Assembly (NCBI RefSeq): GCF_002234675.1
Contig: NC_019879.2
Span: forward strand, 13,210,464-13,274,463
DNA from: Oryzias latipes
Taxonomy: Eukaryota > Chordata > Actinopteri > Beloniformes > Adrianichthyidae
Direction of reading: 5' to 3'
Length of the DNA stretch: 64,000 nt
A model generated the notes under the pieces. That model was not told the origin of the DNA. It was given only the letters and a program-made list of their open reading frames with translations, and made no database searches. A program made the position numbers and the translations under genes. This document shows, piece by piece, positions 39,886-52,175 of the stretch. Position 1 is the stretch's first letter; every line of letters starts with the position of its first letter.

Positions 39886-40897
39886 TAAACCATATCAAAA
39901 GCTGCTGGAATCCCAGCCCATATGCCTCTTCAATCGTGCTTGTAAAGAAGAAGGATAGCAGTCTCTGCATGTGTGTGGACTATCGTCAGCCTAACCACAA
40001 AAATCAGGAAGGACGCATTCCCTCTTCCCCGCTTTGAAGACATTTTAGACTCAATGGTCGGGGCCCACTGGTTTTCAACCATAGATTTGGCTAGTTGTTA
40101 AAACCAGGAGGAAGATAAGGCCAAAACGGCATTTTGCACTTCAGTCTCTTCGAACGGAATCTTATGCCTTTCGGACTCTGCAATGCCCCTCTCACCTTCC
40201 AGCGCCTCATGCAACAGATCTTCGTATCAACAGTGCAAATCATTGTTTTTGTACTTGGATGATATTGTGGTGTTTTCATCCACAGTTGATTAGCATTTGG
40301 AAAGGCTAGAGGTGGTGCTTGAACGGCTGCAGCAGGACGGGTTGAAGGTTCAGCTGAGTAAATGTCCCTTCTTTCAACGGCCCAGCGCCTCATGCAACAG
40401 ATCTTCGGGTATCAACAGTGCAAATCATTCTTTTTGTACTTGGATGATATTGTGGTGTTTTCATCAACAGTTGATTAGCATTTGAAAAGGCTAGAGGTGG
40501 TGCTTGAATGGTTGCAGCAGGACGGGTTGAAGGTTAAGCTGAGTAAATGTGCCTTCTTTCAACGGCAGGTACGTTACCTGGGGCAAATGATCTAAGAAAA
40601 AAAGGGGTGTCCACAGACCCCAGCAAGGTCGAAGCGGTGGCCAACTGGGAACCCCCAACTACCATCTACCAACTGCGGTCATTCTTTGGGTTTGCCAGTT
40701 AATATCTGCAGTTTGTGGAGGGCTTTGCCAAGTTGGCTGCCCCATTGCATTGGTTAGTGGCTGAGCTCGAGGGCAAAAAGACCTAGAAAAAGTCAGCCAT
40801 AGGCTTAATGGAAAGCTGGACGGAGGGTTGTCGGAAAAGTTTTGTCTCTCCCTTTCATTTTGGAGGTAGATGCCAGCTACAGTGGAGCTACCGAGCT
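39886..40897 (+). pseudogene. Gypsy Pol fragment, RT to RNase H (left part)
   Basis: A second Gypsy lineage. It reads MCVDYRQPN, PSSPL, MPFGLCNAPLTFQRLMQQIF, YLDDIVVFSS, STDPSKVEAVANWEPP, FFGFAS and EVDASYSGA. Many stops. RNase H is cut by the Merlin-type transposon after SGA and resumes at 52020 with GAVLSQEQGGEVRPIVYASRGL, then at 58381 with REYLLGHKCIVFTDNNPLSYL. Confidence 0.88.
40199..40565 (+). repeat. 183-bp tandem duplication inside the Gypsy RT
   Basis: Units 40199-40381 and 40382-40565 start CCAGCGCCTCATGCAACAG and end CTTTCAACGG. They differ by small indels and substitutions. The YLDD active-site region is thereby doubled. Confidence 0.85.
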
Positions 40898-43800
40898 GGG
40901 TAACACTTTATAATAACTATCCGTTATAGCTAGTTAACAAATCATTAATAAAATCTTAGTTATTGAGCAATAAATGACTTGCTAAATAACTGTTAACAGT
41001 TAGTTAAGGATTTATAAATGTATCTTATAGATAGACAGCAGATAACTAACAAGCTTTTAGTTAGTGAGCTATAAATGACTTGTTACCCGTATATTCATGA
41101 GTTCTAACTGTACCTTATTAATTAGCCAGATGATGAAGAAACTGTTAATAAATTACTTACTAATGACTTATTAAGAATCAGTTAATACTTTAAACATGTT
41201 ACTAGGACGTTATTATAAAGTTGCAGCTATTCCTCGTTTCTTCACTATTTGTAAATGAGGATCAATTCCAACTTTATAATAACGTCCAAATAACATTTAC
41301 AAGCTAATAACTAACGCTTAACTGCTATATTAACTCACACTTTACAGGTCAGTTGTTAATAGTTTAACCATCTGCTAGTGAAGCTTTGTTGAAAAGCAAA
41401 TGGGTGGGACAATTTCAAGGTACAAAAATATGTAATATTCAAAATATCAGATGCTTTATCTCATCCTTCTTTCACTAATAGCTTTTTCTGTTTACCGTAC
41501 TTGACCAAAGAAACACCACAAGTTAAGTGTTGAACACTGTTTATTCCTTTTCCACACATACTGAGTCGTCACATGGCAGATCAGCAGAATAAAACGGAAT
41601 TTTAGAACTTTTTGAGCAGAACAGAAAAAAACAAATGAATCTATAACAAGGATTGCTGTAGAACAATTCGAACTCAATATATTTGGTCAACCGGACCTGA
41701 GCAACACTGAACTACTCTGTGACACCATCCCGCAGTGTTTCAATACCTAAGCTTTCCTGGACAGAGGAATCAGTTTTCCCTTCTTCTTTTGATGTTCAAC
41801 ATCCCTCAAAAGGTTTGGATCACTATTTATCACTTCCAGACATTTTTTTGAAAAGTCCTGAAGTCGTTGCTGTGGCGTGTGGGCACCCAGTAACTCCTTA
41901 TATGTCTTTGGGGCCACCACAGCCAATTCACAGATCGGAGCATTGCTGACAATGGTGTTTCGGTCAACACCGACCTTCTGATATGCCAAACTCAGCTTTC
42001 TCCCTTTCTTGTAAGCCTTTAGGACTTTCTTGTATCTCTTGATGACCTCTTGAGGATGACGTGCTGAAACAGATAGAAATTTAAGTACAACAAACATACA
42101 ATAAGTGAATAAACACAGGGACACAAACACAGATACTATGCGGTTGCAAAAAGGGATGAAGACTACACAAACAAGGCAATTGGAGAGTTCACAATACTAT
42201 ACCCACCAGGACATACATTTAAAACATTTTTTCACACAAAAACAGAAAGAAAGCTAGACAGACATAGAAAAAGACAGATACAGACAAACAGAGACACAGA
42301 GAGACAGATGTGATGTCTCCATGCTCGACACCCTGACACACATGAGGGGAGTGGCCTTTTTGCTGTCCTGTCTTTACGCTTACCTCTTCGCCTGCTGTGT
42401 TCCCTTTTTGTCTTCTTTTTCTTTCTTTTGTCCTTTTTTTTTTGACTCCGGTGGCGGTGCATCTTTTTGTTCTTGCGTTTTTTCTTCATTTCTGATCTGA
42501 AAAAGCAGTTGATGAGGTGCTGGATGAAGAGGAGTTGAATGAAGTGGAGCTGAATGAACTGGAGCTGGATGAACTGGAGCTGGATGAACTGAAGGACGAA
42601 GAAAAAGAAGATGCACCAGGAGATGTGTTGGCCGAGGAGGATGAGTCAGTTGTCCCACTGTTATCTGTGTGAACAACATGATAGAAAACACAATTCAATT
42701 GTTAATTTGAAATTATTACCTATGATAATACAAGTCCACTCGCATACATTCTTTTAACATTTGCATTTCCCAAGACTTACTATTTAATTAATCAGCATCA
42801 CTGTGGGTCATCAGTTGAACAGATGTGTTTGCTGTTAATCGATGCTACAAATAGGCTATTATCTTTTAGGAACTAACTGTGCAATAACACACTTGTGTTC
42901 CAATAGACCTGGCCAATAAATTAATTTGATCAATTAATTCAAATTTGTAGTTCAAGATTTTCCCATTTTTTTGGGAGAATCTGGCCTCTATTTACCCAGC
43001 ACTCTGCTTTCTTGGAGTAAATCTGTCCTTGTTTTCTCTGCATGTTTTAGTTAGAGTTTCCAGTTGCATGACATTAAAAATGTCTTCATGCCATTTACAA
43101 ATTACTTTTAGATCATTTCATTTTCTTAAAAAAGTTGTCATTCTCGTCAGCTGGTCCAGACTACAGTTGATCTTGTGGGCGATGCATGGGGGTCTTTTTA
43201 AGTGACATGTTTTGCTGCTGTGCTAAAGGAAACAAAAACAACTTATTTGTGATAGGAAATGAAACACATTATTGATGGTGGCTGGTGAGTCAAAAAATAA
43301 AATGTGGTCACTGTGGTGGTGACTTTAAACTTGGAGCATCAAATCACACGCAGCAAAATCCGTTTGATGGTCGTTAGCAGAAGAGGGAGTATGAGGACAA
43401 CCTAGACAAAGTTTTTTTTTTTTTGGCCATAGCGCCGAGCTCCATGTTTTGATGGGGGCCTTCTCACTGTTAAATATTGGCCTTTCTTTCCCTTAATATA
43501 TATATTTTACAAAGCACCAAAGTATTATTGCCAGGTGTGCAGTCCTGTTTCAAACAACAAACAAAACTGTGGGCCCACTTACTTTGACCAACTTGTTGGC
43601 AGAGGGAGTCTCTCTCCTTAGTCAGGTCACTGATTTTTTTGGTGACTGTGTGCTGCTTCTTCTTCTTGGCCTCACGTCGTTTAAGCTCTTTCTTCTTAAA
43701 ATGCAGAAATGCTGTTGGAGCTACAGTTTCTTCAGTATCTGAAATGATACCATAAAGAACAAATTCTAATTAGAAAAGCCAGGTTAGGGTAAATGTATAA

Positions 43801-44071
43801 AATATGACCTTTAAAAATAATGTTTTGATGTTCTGAAGGGTCAATATTATACAAATATCATACAAGAACGGCAGAAGAGCTTAGATAAAATCCACCAATA
43901 AGCGAATTAACAAGAAATGGCTAATGAAGAGCAAACCTTCATTAGCCAAATGTTGCTCTTAATTTTACTCCTCCATCGTCAAATTTGGTCATATTTGGCA
44001 CCTAGTGAGTTTTAAATTTTGGACCCCGCCTGCATACTTTTATCCTTGGAGTGTTTTTCTTGTTTCTAAAC
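40898..44071 (+). repeat. Left inverted arm of the Merlin-type transposon
   Basis: 3174 bp, complementary to 48845-52019. I noticed three mismatches in the outer 100 bp and only isolated ones further in (for example the Ser/Phe change in the ORFs near 42310 and 50620). The outer part is rich in TTAGTTA and TAACTAA motifs. A palindrome at about 41207-41281 (GACGTTATTATAAAGTTG against CAACTTTATAATAACGTC) repeats the terminal motif. The inner border carries the complement of the last 10 codons of the transposase. Confidence 0.92.
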
Positions 44072-46383
44072 TGGACGCTGATGTTTCTTTAGATCCTTTG
44101 TCCATTTTTCACAACCTGGTATAGACTTTTCTGTCTGTCAAATACCCAGAGTCATGATGAGTGAGATGATGGAAACAAATTCACTTTGATGCAGACTCGT
44201 CTTTTTCTCTGCTTCCACTTTTCATAAAATCCAGTAAACCCAATAAATTACATTAATTTATGGATAAAAACTATTTTTTTATTTAGAAAGCAGCTGTTGG
44301 TTTGTTGCGGGATCTGGAGTCATAAGCGGTATCTGAGCTCCTCCCCGGCTCTGTACCTGTTCAGATGTTCACGTCCTCTGCAGCCAAGTTGGTTTGCCCC
44401 GCGCGTTAACCCCCCCAACCCCCCCCCCCCCACACACACACACACACATACGCGCGCGCCGCGCACATGCGTACGGGCTGCTCCAGTGTATTCTTCACAG
44501 AGTGCAAATACTGTAATTACAAGTACACACGACAGTAAGGGTGCCCTTGCGCACATTTCATTAACTTGGACGTGGAAATGAGCGGTTTTAGTCTAGAAAA
44601 ACTGCGGGGGGGGGGGGGGGGGGGTACATTTTTGGGATGCTCGTGCCGTGGCACGAGTCGTGCAGGAAGATTGTGCCCTAGCCAGGGCCGGCCCTGGTCT
44701 TCTGGGGGCCCTAAGCGAAATTTAATTTGTGGGCCCTCTAACTGATCAGCAGCACCAAAAAAACACAACTGTTGTTGTAATATAAATGAGAAATCCCTAT
44801 TAATACATTTGTGAATTATTGTTGCTGCCAAAGAATTGAATACAGTATATTGCCTGCATGTTGGATACACATTTAGTGGTGCACAACAAATTTTAAATGC
44901 AAAGAAATAAATATGAATGACAAATGTATATAGATATATAAATATATATTTTTTAATGTAACATTAAGCACTCAACAAATGACATTCACAAAACTCCAAC
45001 TTTCAAAAACAGCAACTTAACAGAAAATCAAATAACGATAAAACAATCCAACATAAAGAACACAACAGCTCAATGAGGGGATTTTGGAAAATTCAAAGTC
45101 TTTATCAGTCTGAAAAGGACCTCTCTGCACCTAATCCATTCTTTCTGGATCATAGACTGTGGTTGGTCATTCAGCTGGACAAATTGGATTTGAGGTTGGT
45201 GGAATTGATTCTACATATTTCATGCCAATGCAAGATTTTAAGACACATTCAATGTTGAAAAAGTAAGTCAGACTACCTGACCTGCTATAATAAACAACAG
45301 TTTTTTTAATGACATAAACCGGAAAATGCAGAAAGCACTATATGTGTTAGCAAAACAATTAAACAATACGATTATAACATGAGTTAAAACATTTTTCAGC
45401 CACCATACCATCATCATTATTTACTTTTCTCTGCTATTAGCCGTTTTGGAAGGTCATGTCCGACCTCATGATCTTGGAAACTTGGATATCAGAATTATTT
45501 TCGAGTTTTCCATTGGAAATGACGGGGTTGTTTATGTGCAATCTTCACCTCGGATCGATTAGTATAATTTGACGTAAATTGCGCAGCTGCACCGAAAGGC
45601 AGGATAATGTATAAATACGGCCCCAACATCCTCCAAACTTACCTTGTGATTGATGTTGAAGTTCATCTTTTTTCAGCTCCTAATGGTGGATAAAGTATCT
45701 TTGGCATGATGTTGTCTTGTCGCTTTAATCAGTGTGATAAAATGTGCTCGTTTTTTTTTTCTTTTTCCCAACTTTATTGAAACAAAAATGCGCTCGTAAA
45801 TGCACACTGTGTATGGCTCAGATGGAATGATGTTGACCAATCGTTGCAAAGAGGGGCGTGACGCCCTTATTTGGGTTGCCAGATTGGTTCAGGTGTGTTG
45901 AAGGGGGGATCACAAAAGTGCAAGTTTCTTTTGCACAACATTCAGAGCGCACGTTGGTACGGAAATTCTATCAAGTGGGTTGCCAGATTTGGGTCTTTCT
46001 TTATTTCATTTTTTTCGCCACTTCGGGGCCCTGGTGATGACGGGGGCCCTACGCGGCTGCGTAATTCGCGTATAGGGAGGGCCGGCCATGGCCCTAGCCA
46101 GTGGCTTCACTACTATGGTTGAATTGTGTAAAACAAATCAATGACTCCGATGTTTAATCAATCTCAATCAAGCTTCTTTTCATTGAAAGAAAAGATAACA
46201 CGTTTGCTTACCGACACCGTCATCGTCCATGTGCACATCCGGCTGGTCCACAGTTGAAGTTTCCCTCTCCTTCGAAATTCCCGCTGTTGACTTTTTCCTC
46301 TTTTTTCCGACAGTACCTGGATTTATCGCGGTAGTTTGCGCATTCCCGCTGGGGTTGGACATTTTACCAGACCGTGTGTTCAT
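41747..46383 (-). CDS. CCDC106-like protein gene carried by the transposon (frame break in exon 3)
   Basis: Exons: 46212-46383 (ATG at 46383, basic KKRKKS stretch), 43583-43738 (coiled coil KKISDLTKERDSLCQQ), 42384-42664 (Ser-rich, then Lys/Arg-rich) and 41747-42063 (conserved domain: RYKKVLKAYKKGRKLSLAY, VDRNTIVSNAPICELAV, and a basic end). All borders are GT-AG and the phases agree. The order of coiled coil, Ser-rich, basic and RYKK...VDRNT...APIxEL domains matches CCDC106, a nuclear protein of vertebrates. In exon 3 the Ser-rich frame ends in TGA, which overlaps an ATG (ATGA) one frame back; that frame continues correctly into exon 4. Either a 1-base deletion broke the gene or the second part is translated by reinitiation. 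Its role in the transposon is unknown. Confidence 0.72.
44400..44460 (+). repeat. C tract, CA repeat and alternating CG/CA
   Basis: A run of C followed by CACACA and CGCGCG sequence. A further run of about 19 G stands at 44606-44624. Both are in intron 1 of the CCDC106-like gene. Confidence 0.8.
44683..46090. mobile_element. hAT-type element in intron 1 of the CCDC106-like gene
   Basis: 1408 bp, CAGGGCCGGCCCTGG...GAGGGCCGGCCATG, with an 8-bp target duplication GCCCTAGC (44675-44682 and 46091-46098). GGGGCCCT motifs lie near both ends. No transposase is visible. It has inserted into the Merlin-type element and does not disturb the splice sites. Confidence 0.83.
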
Positions 46384-46710
46384 CTCTATGCCTTGAAATC
46401 AATTTAAAGAACTTGCTACGTGACTCGTGAGTGAAGGATGGGCGCATCTGTCTAGGTTGTCGCCGGCTGCAACTAATCAAAATGGGCCTACAACGGTGAT
46501 TGACAAGTTGATAACCAGCCGATATGATGGGGGAGGCCGCATGGCACCGCCCTCAGCCCATGAATACGAATATGATTGGCTTGGTTTATCCTCATCACAC
46601 CGATTTATTATAGTTTGCAATTCAAACGTAATCTGGCGGGAGTTAGTCACTGAAGCTCAGGAATAGTGTGGCGAGTGCGCGGAAAAACGGAGGATAAGAA
46701 AACTAAAATC
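46384..46710. promoter_or_regulatory. Shared divergent promoter region
   Basis: About 330 bp between the minus-strand ATG of the CCDC106-like gene and the plus-strand ATG of the transposase. It contains a CCAAT-type GATTGG (46574-46579) and no obvious TATA box. The head-to-head layout suggests coordinated transcription. This is inferred from position only. Confidence 0.4.
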
Positions 46711-48876
46711 ATGCCTGGTTTAGCCACTGAGCTAAGACAGCTTATCGAAGGAGAAACTAAATCTACAAGGAGACACAAAGTCTTAATCAAATGGCTGCAG
46801 AAGAAAATACTTCTAAGAAGACGGATGAGATGCAAAGAATGCAAACACAAGATGAAATTCAGGGAATCAGTCTGTGTGGATAACTATGCATGGTAAGTTT
46901 CTTTTTATTGAATAAAATGACAACACACATTGATAATTTGTTAAAGAATTTCTTGTGAAAATTAAATCTATTTATTGTGCTAATAAAAGGGCATCTTAAC
47001 TCATGTTAAGATTAAGGGTAAACATGCTGACTATTGTCCTTCTTGCCAAATTTTTGAAAATCATAATACATTTTTTTAACTCCTCAATTTATAACCATCT
47101 GCCTTCTGCCCCTGAGGTAGTAAAGTTGAATTTCGGGATTCATCAGCTGAGTCATCAGTTGGGCAGCTACTGTCCCGATGACTCAGAGCTTCAGTTTCAA
47201 TCAGTTTACTGATTTCAACATGGCGGCGCCTGTCTCAGGAACAGTGGTGCACCTCGTTTAGTCCATTGTTTTTACAGTTTATGAGTTAACGTCAGTGTCA
47301 ATCACAGATCCAAACCATATCTCCCCAGCTCAGCCTACCTTCACCAGGCCCACTCCTTTTTTTTGTTTGTTTTGCATTTTTCAAATCATGGGCTGAGAGT
47401 GGAGTCAGCATCCAACTGCCCTGTTGGGTTACCCTTTAATTTCTAGATACACACTACTATAAACTAAACAATGTACATGATTACAATACGCTAAAAGGCT
47501 GTGCATATCTGCTATAAAAAATAACAACACCATTGAAATATATTAATGTATATGTTATTGGGGTTCCTTGCACTGAATATTTCTAGTTGGGCTTTATGGC
47601 CAAATACACATTACTTTGGGGGGTCCTTGACTTGAAAACAGATTTAAAATCACTGCTTTGGCCACTACCTTGGCCTATGTCATAAGTATTTTTATTTGTA
47701 TATTTTCAGGATTTGCAAACACCACAGCCACAAAGGAAGGAAACTGAAGAGGTCTGTTAGACACAAATCTATATTCAGCAAATCAAAGGTCTCCCTCTTC
47801 AACTGGATGCGGTTTCTCTACAGGTACACTATTGCATTGGTATATTATTTTAGAATGTCTGTCTTTGACATAAAGTGTTTATTTCTATAGAAATACAATA
47901 TAACTATGCTGCCATAAACAATACTTGGAGACTGTACTTACTAAAATGTTGCTTTTCATCTTATATAGCATCTCTAGTCATGAAGATAAGTGATTGGAGT
48001 TATTTCACTTCTGTGATTTATTTTGCTAAAAGTTGTAATTTACACCTTAAATTTTTGGATTTTTTGTCTATCAAACCAAAAAGAAGACAAGAACTGTGGT
48101 GTAATAATAATTTGCTCTTTCATTATATTTGCACAAGGCCCTGCGCCTACGTCAAGTGGACATGATAAGTGACGACATTTCTGGGAGCTCAGCAACACTG
48201 TCCAAGATGGCTCGAAAGCTGCGAGATGTTTGCACCACTGCAATGGACAGATATCAGCAAGCAAGAGGCCAGTACATCGGGGGGCAGGAGCAGTTTGTCA
48301 CAGTTGATGAGAGCCACTTTAGACATAAAAGAAAGGCAAGCAGCAATCACTATTATGTAATAATGCAAATATACAAATTATTGAATGACAGATATTTTTT
48401 TGGTTTGATGAAGAATAATTCCTAATATTTCATGTTTTCAACAGTATGGACGGGGACGAATGGCTGGTGGGTGGAAGAGGAAGAAGTGGGTGTTTGGGAT
48501 GCTAGGTGTTGACCGGAGGGGGAGAAGACATGCTAAACCTATTCTTCGCTTGGTCGAGAGAAGAAGAAGGAGAGATCTGGTGCCGCTTATAGCTCACCAT
48601 GTTAAAGTAGGCTCTACAATAATAAGTGACGAATGGCGGGCTTATCACAATGCTTTACCTGAGCTAGGTTACACTCATTTCACTGTCAATCACAGTGTGT
48701 CATATGTCGATGCCCAAACAGGTGCACATACTCAACACATAGAGAGGGCCTGGAGAACAGTTAAGGAAAATGTGTGGAGACTCAGGGGAAATCGTACAGA
48801 AGAGTTACTGTTAGACCATCTCAGAGTTATTGAATGGCATGAGTGTTTAGAAACAAGAAAAACACTCCAAGGATAA
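46711..48876 (+). CDS. Merlin (IS1595/ISXO2-like) DDE transposase, four exons
   Basis: Exons 46711-46892, 47710-47823, 48138-48335 and 48445-48876, about 308 codons. The N-terminal part has a zinc-ribbon-like CKEC...WICKHH and the family block KRSVRHKSIFSKSKVSLFNWM. The catalytic core has Asp in FVTVDESHF, Asp in GSTIISDEWRAY and Glu in THTQHIERAWRTVK-type sequence (seen as HTQHIERAWRTVK), with the family hallmark YTHFTVNHS...FVD/YVDAQTGAHTQ between. The triad is intact. Intron 3 has a GC-AG border (AAAG|GCAAGC). The exon 2 to 3 junction is out of phase by one base with the only visible sites, so either a site is misplaced or this copy is damaged. The last 10 codons lie in the right arm. Confidence 0.87.
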
Positions 48877-51800
48877 AAGTATGCAGGCGGGGTCCAAAAT
48901 TTAAAACTCACTAGGTGCCAAATATGACCAAATTTGACGATGGAGGAGTAAAATTAAGAGCAACATTTGGCTAATGAAGGTTTGCTCTTCATTAGCCATT
49001 TCTTGTTAATTCGCTTATTGGTGGATTTTATCTAAGCTCTTCTGCCGTTCTTGTATGATATTTGTATAATATTGACCCTTCAGAACATCAAAACATTATT
49101 TTTAAAGGTCATATTTTATACATTTACCCTAACCTGGCTTTTCTAATTAGAATTTGTTCTTTATGGTATCATTTCAGATACTGAGGAAACTGTAGCTCCA
49201 ACAGCATTTCTGCATTTTAAGAAGAAAGAGCTTAAACGACGTGAGGCCAAGAAGAAGAAGCAGCACACAGTCACCAAAAAAATCAGTGACCTGACTAAGG
49301 AGAGAGACTCCCTCTGCCAACAAGTTGGTCAAAGTAAGTGGGCCCACAGTTTTGTTTGTTGTTTGAAACAGGACTGCACACCTGGCAATAATACTTTGGT
49401 GCTTTGTAAAATATATATATTAAGGGAAAGAAAGGCCAATATTTAACAGTGAGAAGGCCCCCATCAAAACATGGAGCTCGGCGCTATGGCCAAAAAAAAA
49501 AAAAACTTTGTCTAGGTTGTCCTCATACTCCCTCTTCTGCTAACGACCATCAAACGGATTTTGCTGCGTGTGATTTGATGCTCCAAGTTTAAAGTCACCA
49601 CCACAGTGACCACATTTTATTTTTTGACTCACCAGCCACCATCAATAATGTGTTTCATTTCCTATCACAAATAAGTTGTTTTTGTTTCCTTTAGCACAGC
49701 AGCAAAACATGTCACTTAAAAAGACCCCCATGCATCGCCCACAAGATCAACTGTAGTCTGGACCAGCTGACGAGAATGACAACTTTTTTAAGAAAATGAA
49801 ATGATCTAAAAGTAATTTGTAAATGGCATGAAGACATTTTTAATGTCATGCAACTGGAAACTCTAACTAAAACATGCAGAGAAAACAAGGACAGATTTAC
49901 TCCAAGAAAGCAGAGTGCTGGGTAAATAGAGGCCAGATTCTCCCAAAAAAATGGGAAAATCTTGAACTACAAATTTGAATTAATTGATCAAATTAATTTA
50001 TTGGCCAGGTCTATTGGAACACAAGTGTGTTATTGCACAGTTAGTTCCTAAAAGATAATAGCCTATTTGTAGCATCGATTAACAGCAAACACATCTGTTC
50101 AACTGATGACCCACAGTGATGCTGATTAATTAAATAGTAAGTCTTGGGAAATGCAAATGTTAAAAGAATGTATGCGAGTGGACTTGTATTATCATAGGTA
50201 ATAATTTCAAATTAACAATTGAATTGTGTTTTCTATCATGTTGTTCACACAGATAACAGTGGGACAACTGACTCATCCTCCTCGGCCAACACATCTCCTG
50301 GTGCATCTTCTTTTTCTTCGTCCTTCAGTTCATCCAGCTCCAGTTCATCCAGCTCCAGTTCATTCAGCTCCACTTCATTCAACTCCTCTTCATCCAGCAC
50401 CTCATCAACTGCTTTTTCAGATCAGAAATGAAGAAAAAACGCAAGAACAAAAAGATGCACCGCCACCGGAGTCAAAAAAAAAAGGACAAAAGAAAGAAAA
50501 AGAAGACAAAAAGGGAACACAGCAGGCGAAGAGGTAAGCGTAAAGACAGGACAGCAAAAAGGCCACTCCCCTCATGTGTGTCAGGGTGTCGAGCATGGAG
50601 ACATCACATCTGTCTCTTTGTGTCTCTGTTTGTCTGTATCTGTCTTTTTCTATGTCTGTCTAGCTTTCTTTCTGTTTTTGTGTGAAAAAATGTTTTAAAT
50701 GTATGTCCTGGTGGGTATAGTATTGTGAACTCTCCAATTGCCTTGTTTGTGTAGTCTTCATCCCTTTTTGCAACCGCATAGTATCTGTGTTTGTGTCCCT
50801 GTGTTTATTCACTTATTGTATGTTTGTTGTACTTAAATTTCTATCTGTTTCAGCACGTCATCCTCAAGAGGTCATCAAGAGATACAAGAAAGTCCTAAAG
50901 GCTTACAAGAAAGGGAGAAAGCTGAGTTTGGCATATCAGAAGGTCGGTGTTGACCGAAACACCATTGTCAGCAATGCTCCGATCTGTGAATTGGCTGTGG
51001 TGGCCCCAAAGACATATAAGGAGTTACTGGGTGCCCACACGCCACAGCAACGACTTCAGGACTTTTCAAAAAAATGTCTGGAAGTGATAAATAGTGATCC
51101 AAACCTTTTGAGGGATGTTGAACATCAAAAGAAGAAGGGAAAACTGATTCCTCTGTCCAGGAAAGCTTAGGTATTGAAACACTGCGGGATGGTGTCACAG
51201 AGTAGTTCAGTGTTGCTCAGGTCCGGTTGACCAAATATATTGAGTTCGAATTGTTCTACAGCAATCCTTGTTATAGATTCATTTGTTTTTTTCTGTTCTG
51301 CTCAAAAAGTTCTAAAATTCCGTTTTATTCTGCTGATCTGCCATGTGACGACTCAGTATGTGTGGAAAAGGAATAAACAGTGTTCAACACTTAACTTGTG
51401 GTGTTTCTTTGGTCAAGTACGGTAAACAGAAAAAGCTATTAGTGAAAGAAGGATGAGATAAAGCATCTGATATTTTGAATATTACATATTTTTGTACCTT
51501 GAAATTGTCCCACCCATTTGCTTTTCAACAAAGCTTCACTAGCAGATGGTTAAACTATTAACAACTGACCTGTAAAGTGTGAGTTAATATAGCAGTTAAG
51601 CGTTAGTTATTAGCTTGTAAATGTTATTTGGACGTTATTATAAAGTTGGAATTGATCCTCATTTACAAATAGTGAAGAAACGAGGAATAGCTGCAACTTT
51701 ATAATAACGTCCTAGTAACATGTTTAAAGTATTAACTGATTCTTAATAAGTCATTAGTAAGTAATTTATTAACAGTTTCTTCATCATCTGGCTAATTAAT

Positions 51801-52019
51801 AAGGTACAGTTAGAACTCATGAATATACGGGTAACAAGTCATTTATAGCTCACTAACTAAAAGCTTGTTAGTTATCTGCTGTCTATCTATAAGATACATT
51901 TATAAATCCTTAACTAACTGTTAACAGTTATTTAGCAAGTCATCTATTGCTCAATAACTAAGAGTTTATTAATGATTTGTTAACCAGCTATAACGGATAG
52001 TTATTATAAAGTGTTACCC
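48845..52019 (-). repeat. Right inverted arm of the Merlin-type transposon
   Basis: 3175 bp, the reverse complement of 40898-44071. It begins inside the last exon of the transposase and contains CCDC106-like exons 2-4 in plus orientation. Confidence 0.92.
49178..51170 (+). pseudogene. CCDC106-like duplicate without exon 1
   Basis: Exons at 49178-49333, 50253-50533 and 50854-51170 mirror exons 2-4 of the left-arm gene, with the same splice sites and the same ATGA frame break at 50428-50431. Exon 1 and its promoter are missing, because they lie in the unique centre. Expression would need read-through from the transposase gene, and none of the transposase exon ends that I see joins exon 2 in phase. 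AATAAA follows at about 51372. Confidence 0.77.
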
Positions 52020-52175
52020 GGAGCGGTGCTGTCACAGGAGCAAGGTGGGGAAGTAAGGCCCATTGTTTACGCCAGCCGAGGTCTATGGCCCCCAGAGCGT
52101 AATATGAATAACTCCAGCTCAATGACGCTGGAGTTTCTGGCTATGAAGTAGGCGATGGCCGAAATGTACAGGGAG
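52020..52175 (+). pseudogene. Gypsy RNase H, middle part
   Basis: Continues the frame of 39886-40897: GAVLSQEQGGEVRPIVYASRGLWPPERN...MTLEFLAMK. It ends at the L1-like insertion. Confidence 0.87.

Follow-up and report, generated by a model that had tools for sequence, protein, structure and literature searches.

A medaka Merlin-type transposon that pairs a transposase gene with a CCDC106-like gene and carries long inverted arms

Introduction

In PIF/Harbinger transposons, two genes act together, with a Myb-like DNA-binding second protein assisting the transposase. The idea of a DNA-binding partner is echoed by an element of the medaka Oryzias latipes, whose transposase and partner are unrelated to those of PIF/Harbinger. 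This element lies in a window of 64,000 nt of contig NC_019879.2 (coordinates count from the window start) and combines a spliced Merlin-type transposase gene with a spliced CCDC106-like gene between nearly identical inverted arms. The gene pair is of greater interest than the long arms. No description of such a pairing was found among the papers listed for CCDC106, Merlin elements and fish transposases, and the term "CCDC" is absent from PMC4746887.

The Merlin superfamily is attributed to Feschotte 2004 (cited in PMC8101967). In the available text of PMC8101967, Merlin terminal inverted repeats (TIRs) range from 24 to 462 bp, and one protist family has an extra 1-kb open reading frame (ORF) that overlaps the transposase and is without known relatives; neither "CCDC" nor "second ORF" occurs in the main text. 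The medaka element resembles this superfamily in its DDE_Tnp_IS1595 domain with a D–D–E triad, its terminal GG and a possible 8-bp target-site duplication (8 or 9 bp being expected of Merlin), but differs in the additional, divergently oriented CCDC106-like gene and in arms of 3.17 kb. It is assigned to Merlin from the DDE domain with its triad and from the terminal GG. The original prediction, made from this DNA without database searches, put the arms at about one hundred times the length of Merlin ends, whereas they are about seven times the longest TIR given in PMC8101967. It also took the architecture to be undescribed for Merlin; the arms do exceed that range, but they look like a peculiarity of this copy.

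Kolobok lineages, such as KolobokP, are likewise DDD/E transposons that each keep an extra gene, and KolobokP also has long terminal repeats, although these are direct and those of the medaka element inverted. Kolobok is, however, another superfamily, and the partners named in the available text of PMC9587614 are nucleases, a helicase or KolX.

The transposase gene

The transposase gene reads rightward in four exons (46711–48876; Table 1), with splice sites placed by eye. Exon 4 matches PF12762 (DDE_Tnp_IS1595, the ISXO2/IS1595-type DDE domain) with an E-value of 5.1e-16, and the domain was found in 35 of 35 chosen relatives. The D–D–E residues lie in the motifs TVDES, ISDEW and HIERAW, in a register that agrees with the relatives in the alignment. 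The Zn_Tnp_IS1595 domain gave no match up to E 0.001 in the 35 relatives; Merlin is reported without it in the available text of PMC8101967. A different zinc ribbon, of the recombinase type (PF13408), was observed at the N-terminus in 12 of the 35.

The homologue search returned 136 proteins at E 0.001 or better, at least 120 of which were considered. Among the matches listed, the closest relative is Fundulus P0001 (87% identity over 97%), and the named relatives are fishes, with cluster P0049 additionally labelled Mustela. A protein of Labeo rohita (P0028), named IQ domain-containing protein H, holds a transposase fragment 90% identical over 51% of the query; this likeness in a distant cyprinid may reflect horizontal transfer or contamination.

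The domain and the triad are as originally predicted, but the protein is truncated at the arm junction. Exon 4 runs to VIEWHE, continues with ten residues encoded by the right arm and stops, and the last 24 residues of P0001 are lost. This tail is kept in all 17 aligned relatives (17/17), which were chosen partly for their full-length look. The tail motif occurs in 26 of the 35 relatives, and several of the nine without it are gene models that stop short or drift out of frame. Furthermore, the block that is conserved around the exon 2/3 junction in relatives (RFAQGL in P0001) is unreadable in frame in this copy; a candidate alternative donor would leave the frame open.

The CCDC106-like gene

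The CCDC106-like gene is divergent from the transposase gene. Their start codons stand 327 bp from each other, an arrangement that makes a common promoter region likely. The gene does not sit as cargo within the arms: only exon 1 lies in the unique middle, while exons 2–4 belong to the left arm and recur in the right one. When the O. latipes gene model P0132 was compared with the window by tblastn, two pieces matched almost or fully (98.9 and 100%), with a frame shift in one. The other two matched at 82.7 and 69.9% because the alignments run into introns, the exon portions being identical by eye. The first base of exon 2 was likewise set by eye, since an arm difference hid the exon start from exact search. 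In the medaka models P0129, P0131, P0132 and P0133, this exon 1 is joined to this exon 2.

The last exon matches PF15794 in each arm (E 8.2e-31; 108 bits against a curated cut-off of 30.2). The gene thus shares with CCDC106 the Pfam family, a coiled coil and the C-terminal domain, and differs in being repeated in the genome and in sitting in a transposon. The structure model of the medaka relative P0122 has a long N-terminal helix (14–59), consistent with a coiled coil. In the copy described here, the reading frame is interrupted downstream of the Ser-rich tract, a defect common to both arms; in medaka relatives such as P0122 it stays open. Both genes are damaged: with the transposase tail lost, the exon 2/3 block unreadable and this frame broken, the intactness of the copy is not confirmed. 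O. latipes P0122, P0129, P0131 and P0133 are annotated as zinc finger CCHC domain-containing protein 10-like or suppressor protein SRP40-like, and look like misnamed transposon genes.

Structure models predict a likeness between the CCDC106 domain (41747–42063) and the DNA-binding fold of plant LEAFY, with 6–17% identity in structural alignments. The predicted likeness is one of fold. At the sequence level, the Pfam matches (E of 1 or lower) included no LEAFY family, and the 18 PDB matches found with the same limit included no LEAFY chain. We know of no LEAFY-like DNA-binding fold from animals.

Association of the two genes in other fishes

A CCDC106-like profile search gave 112 matches, which were compared against the transposase list. 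Numbered locus tags were present in both lists for five species: Metynnis (one transposase, one CCDC106), Mugilogobius (3, 1), Serrasalmus (5, 1), Epinephelus coioides (1, 2) and Coilia (2, 1). The transposase and CCDC106 tags are consecutive in Metynnis (280360/280370) and Mugilogobius (015389/015388), on contigs equal in size, and not consecutive in the other three. Under random gene order, consecutive tags in at least two species have a probability of about 4e-7, assuming 25,000 genes. In Triplophysa, a single gene model (P0090) holds both domains. In Danio, Melanotaenia, Parambassis and E. coioides, the longest contigs of both genes are equal in size, which suggests, from contig size alone and without a tally against all shared species, that both genes lie on one chromosome.

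Two trees, one built from 23 selected transposases and the other from 27 selected CCDC106 domains, both place Danio and Triplophysa outside the group of the remaining linked species, and in both Mugilogobius, Melanotaenia and Parambassis cluster together. The position of Epinephelus differs between the trees, several forks are weak, a long-branch warning applies to Triplophysa, and correlations between transposase and CCDC106 distances are not significant.

Since the two genes lie side by side in some other fishes, the element seems to have had both for a long time, and the CCDC106-like gene looks like a standing partner. The original prediction described it as captured. The spliced CCDC106-like gene (PF15794) is indeed there; a one-off capture fits poorly with the adjacency. 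The support that the prediction asked for, other loci with both genes between the same ends, was obtained indirectly and for the gene pair, as the consecutive tags of two species and the one two-domain model. A passive host gene, picked up by one Merlin copy and without a role in transposition, is an unlikely reading. CCDC106 is a named vertebrate gene (Latimeria entry P0213), and uptake of host sequence by DNA transposons through gap filling is reported in the available text of PMC8277862. However, in Metynnis and Mugilogobius diverged homologues of the two genes are neighbours, in Triplophysa they share one model, and a recent single capture predicts neither this linkage nor the main split common to both trees.

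Origin of the inverted arms

The near-identity of the 3.17-kb arms, as first claimed, is confirmed by base-by-base alignment: they differ by five substitutions and one single-base indel in a T run, a combination of length and identity far beyond chance. They enclose a unique middle of 4.77 kb. The element tips are identical (GGGTAACACTTTATAATAAC, at 40898 on the plus strand and 52019 on the minus strand), and no third match to these 20 bases was found within the window with up to three substitutions. GGGTAAC stands at both ends, in agreement with the terminal GG of Merlin elements in the available text of PMC8101967.

Because the right arm truncates the transposase, the arms look as though they arose late, when one end of this copy was copied onto the other. 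Since the part cut is the conserved transposase tail, the left end probably served as template for the right. Three of the five substitutions fall within the outer 76 bp (P 1.3e-4, in a test chosen post hoc), a clustering that would be expected if the right tip is what remains of the original right repeat and the inner part was copied from the left. For DNA transposons, template switching during gap filling is described in the available text of PMC8277862.

An inverted chimeric read or misjoin would make the arms an assembly artefact, which is distinctly unlikely. Near-perfect palindromic arms are a known hazard for assembly, but these carry the differences given above and their outer flanks are not alike. 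By eye, the reading of one Gypsy-like RNase H runs on from one flank into the other (FILEVDASYSG... / GAVLSQEQGGEVRPIVYASRG...), and as apparent parts of one such region they argue against a fold-back read. Pfam backs the right flank, with an RT_RNaseH_2 match that starts at profile position 43 (E 1.9e-5) but does not reach the curated cut-off; a left-flank piece has a weak reverse transcriptase match (E 0.015), and the final 29 residues before the element gave no Pfam match. A 185-bp tandem duplication (95%) was also observed in this left flank, at 40199–40566.

The long-armed form could itself be mobile, in which case Merlin would include a subfamily that moves together with its kilobase arms. 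The element has both of its ends, nearly identical to each other, and the transposase of another copy could move it. The best candidate target-site duplication (CCGAGCTG / CGGAGCGG) matches at 6/8 positions, with P 0.004 for a single placing and 15 placings compared. This scenario is nonetheless improbable, given that the arm junction destroys the transposase tail, and an imperfect target-site repeat beside near-identical arms fits arms made after insertion. Two Merlin copies inserted head to head with loss of the intervening sequence would also yield inverted arms with matching ends, but this is very improbable, as the middle has a single exon 1 and a single transposase in an order continuous with the left arm, the end sequence occurs at 40898 and 52019 only, with no inner terminal repeats near 48.8 kb, and a second exon 1 looked for there was not found.

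Subterminal repeats and nested insertion

The imperfect subterminal repeats of the left arm form pairs of 72-nt and of 53-nt units. TTAGTTA/TAACTAA, a motif picked post hoc, occurs five times in 40898–41397, once in the remaining left arm and never in the middle. Intron 1 of the CCDC106-like gene holds a putatively hAT-like insertion; 8-bp direct repeats (GCCCTAGC) stand around it at 44675 and 46091.

Table 1. Features of the medaka element, in window coordinates
Feature	Position	Strand	Remarks
Whole element, 11,122 bp	40898..52019	.	Matching ends and arms
Candidate target-site duplication, left half CCGAGCTG	40891..40898	+	Element start taken as GGTAAC
Candidate target-site duplication, right half CGGAGCGG	52019..52026	+	
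Left inverted arm, ~3.17 kb	40898..44071	+	
Right inverted arm, read as an inverted left end	48845..52019	-	Inner edge cuts last transposase exon
Subterminal AT-rich region, imperfect repeats	40898..41397	+	
CCDC106-like exon 4, CCDC106 domain, left arm	41747..42063	-	PF15794
CCDC106-like exon 3, left arm, Ser-rich followed by Lys-rich	42384..42664	-	
CCDC106-like exon 2, coiled coil, left arm	43583..43738	-	First base set by eye
Nested insertion, presumably hAT-like, CCDC106-like intron 1	44683..46090	.	Ends CAGGGCCGGCCC / CATGGCCGGCCC
CCDC106-like exon 1, unique middle	46212..46383	-	Located with O. latipes gene model P0132
Transposase exon 1, start MPGLATELRQL	46711..46892	+	tblastn with P0001, 80% identity
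Transposase exon 2	47710..47823	+	tblastn with P0001
Transposase exon 3, first catalytic D; TVDES from 48300	48138..48335	+	GC-AG donor 3' of exon
Transposase exon 4, second D (ISDEW from 48622) and E (HIERAW from 48736)	48445..48876	+	
Right-arm copies of CCDC106-like exons 2–4, without exon 1	49178..49333, 50253..50533, 50854..51170	+	

Proposed model and significance

The reading that we favour, with a probability of roughly 70%, is that of a two-gene teleost Merlin lineage whose CCDC106-like partner binds element DNA and helps the transposase, with the arms made by later copying of one end in this copy. In such a lineage, two spliced genes would be read divergently from a short central region, one encoding the Merlin DDE transposase and the other a CCDC106-like protein with a coiled coil, Ser-rich and Lys-rich stretches and a C-terminal helical domain of predicted LEAFY-like fold. 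The partner would bind DNA of the element, its likeliest target being the subterminal 0.5 kb with its many repeats, and would help to assemble or target the transposition complex. Later, in the simplest route, the right terminal repeat would have annealed to the left one and primed repair synthesis, which would have copied about 3.1 kb inward before rejoining within the last transposase exon. The right end would thus have been replaced by an inverted left end, giving the 3.17-kb arms and removing the transposase tail. The anatomy, the near-identity of the arms, the truncation and the finding of both gene families side by side in two further fishes are observations; the repair route, the DNA binding and the helper role are inferences.

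It is a more tentative and rather doubtful idea that CCDC106 was by origin the DNA-binding partner, with its LEAFY-like fold, of a two-gene Merlin lineage, and that vertebrate CCDC106, a gene examined for how it affects p53, descends from that transposon gene by domestication.

The arms would offer a clean example of long inverted repeats arising through the copying of one transposon end onto the other. If the favoured reading is true, Merlin would be one more transposon group that retains a DNA-binding second protein, and the abundance of "CCDC106-like" gene models in fish genomes, some of them misnamed, would be explained in part. It would also raise the question of whether vertebrate CCDC106 came from a transposon.
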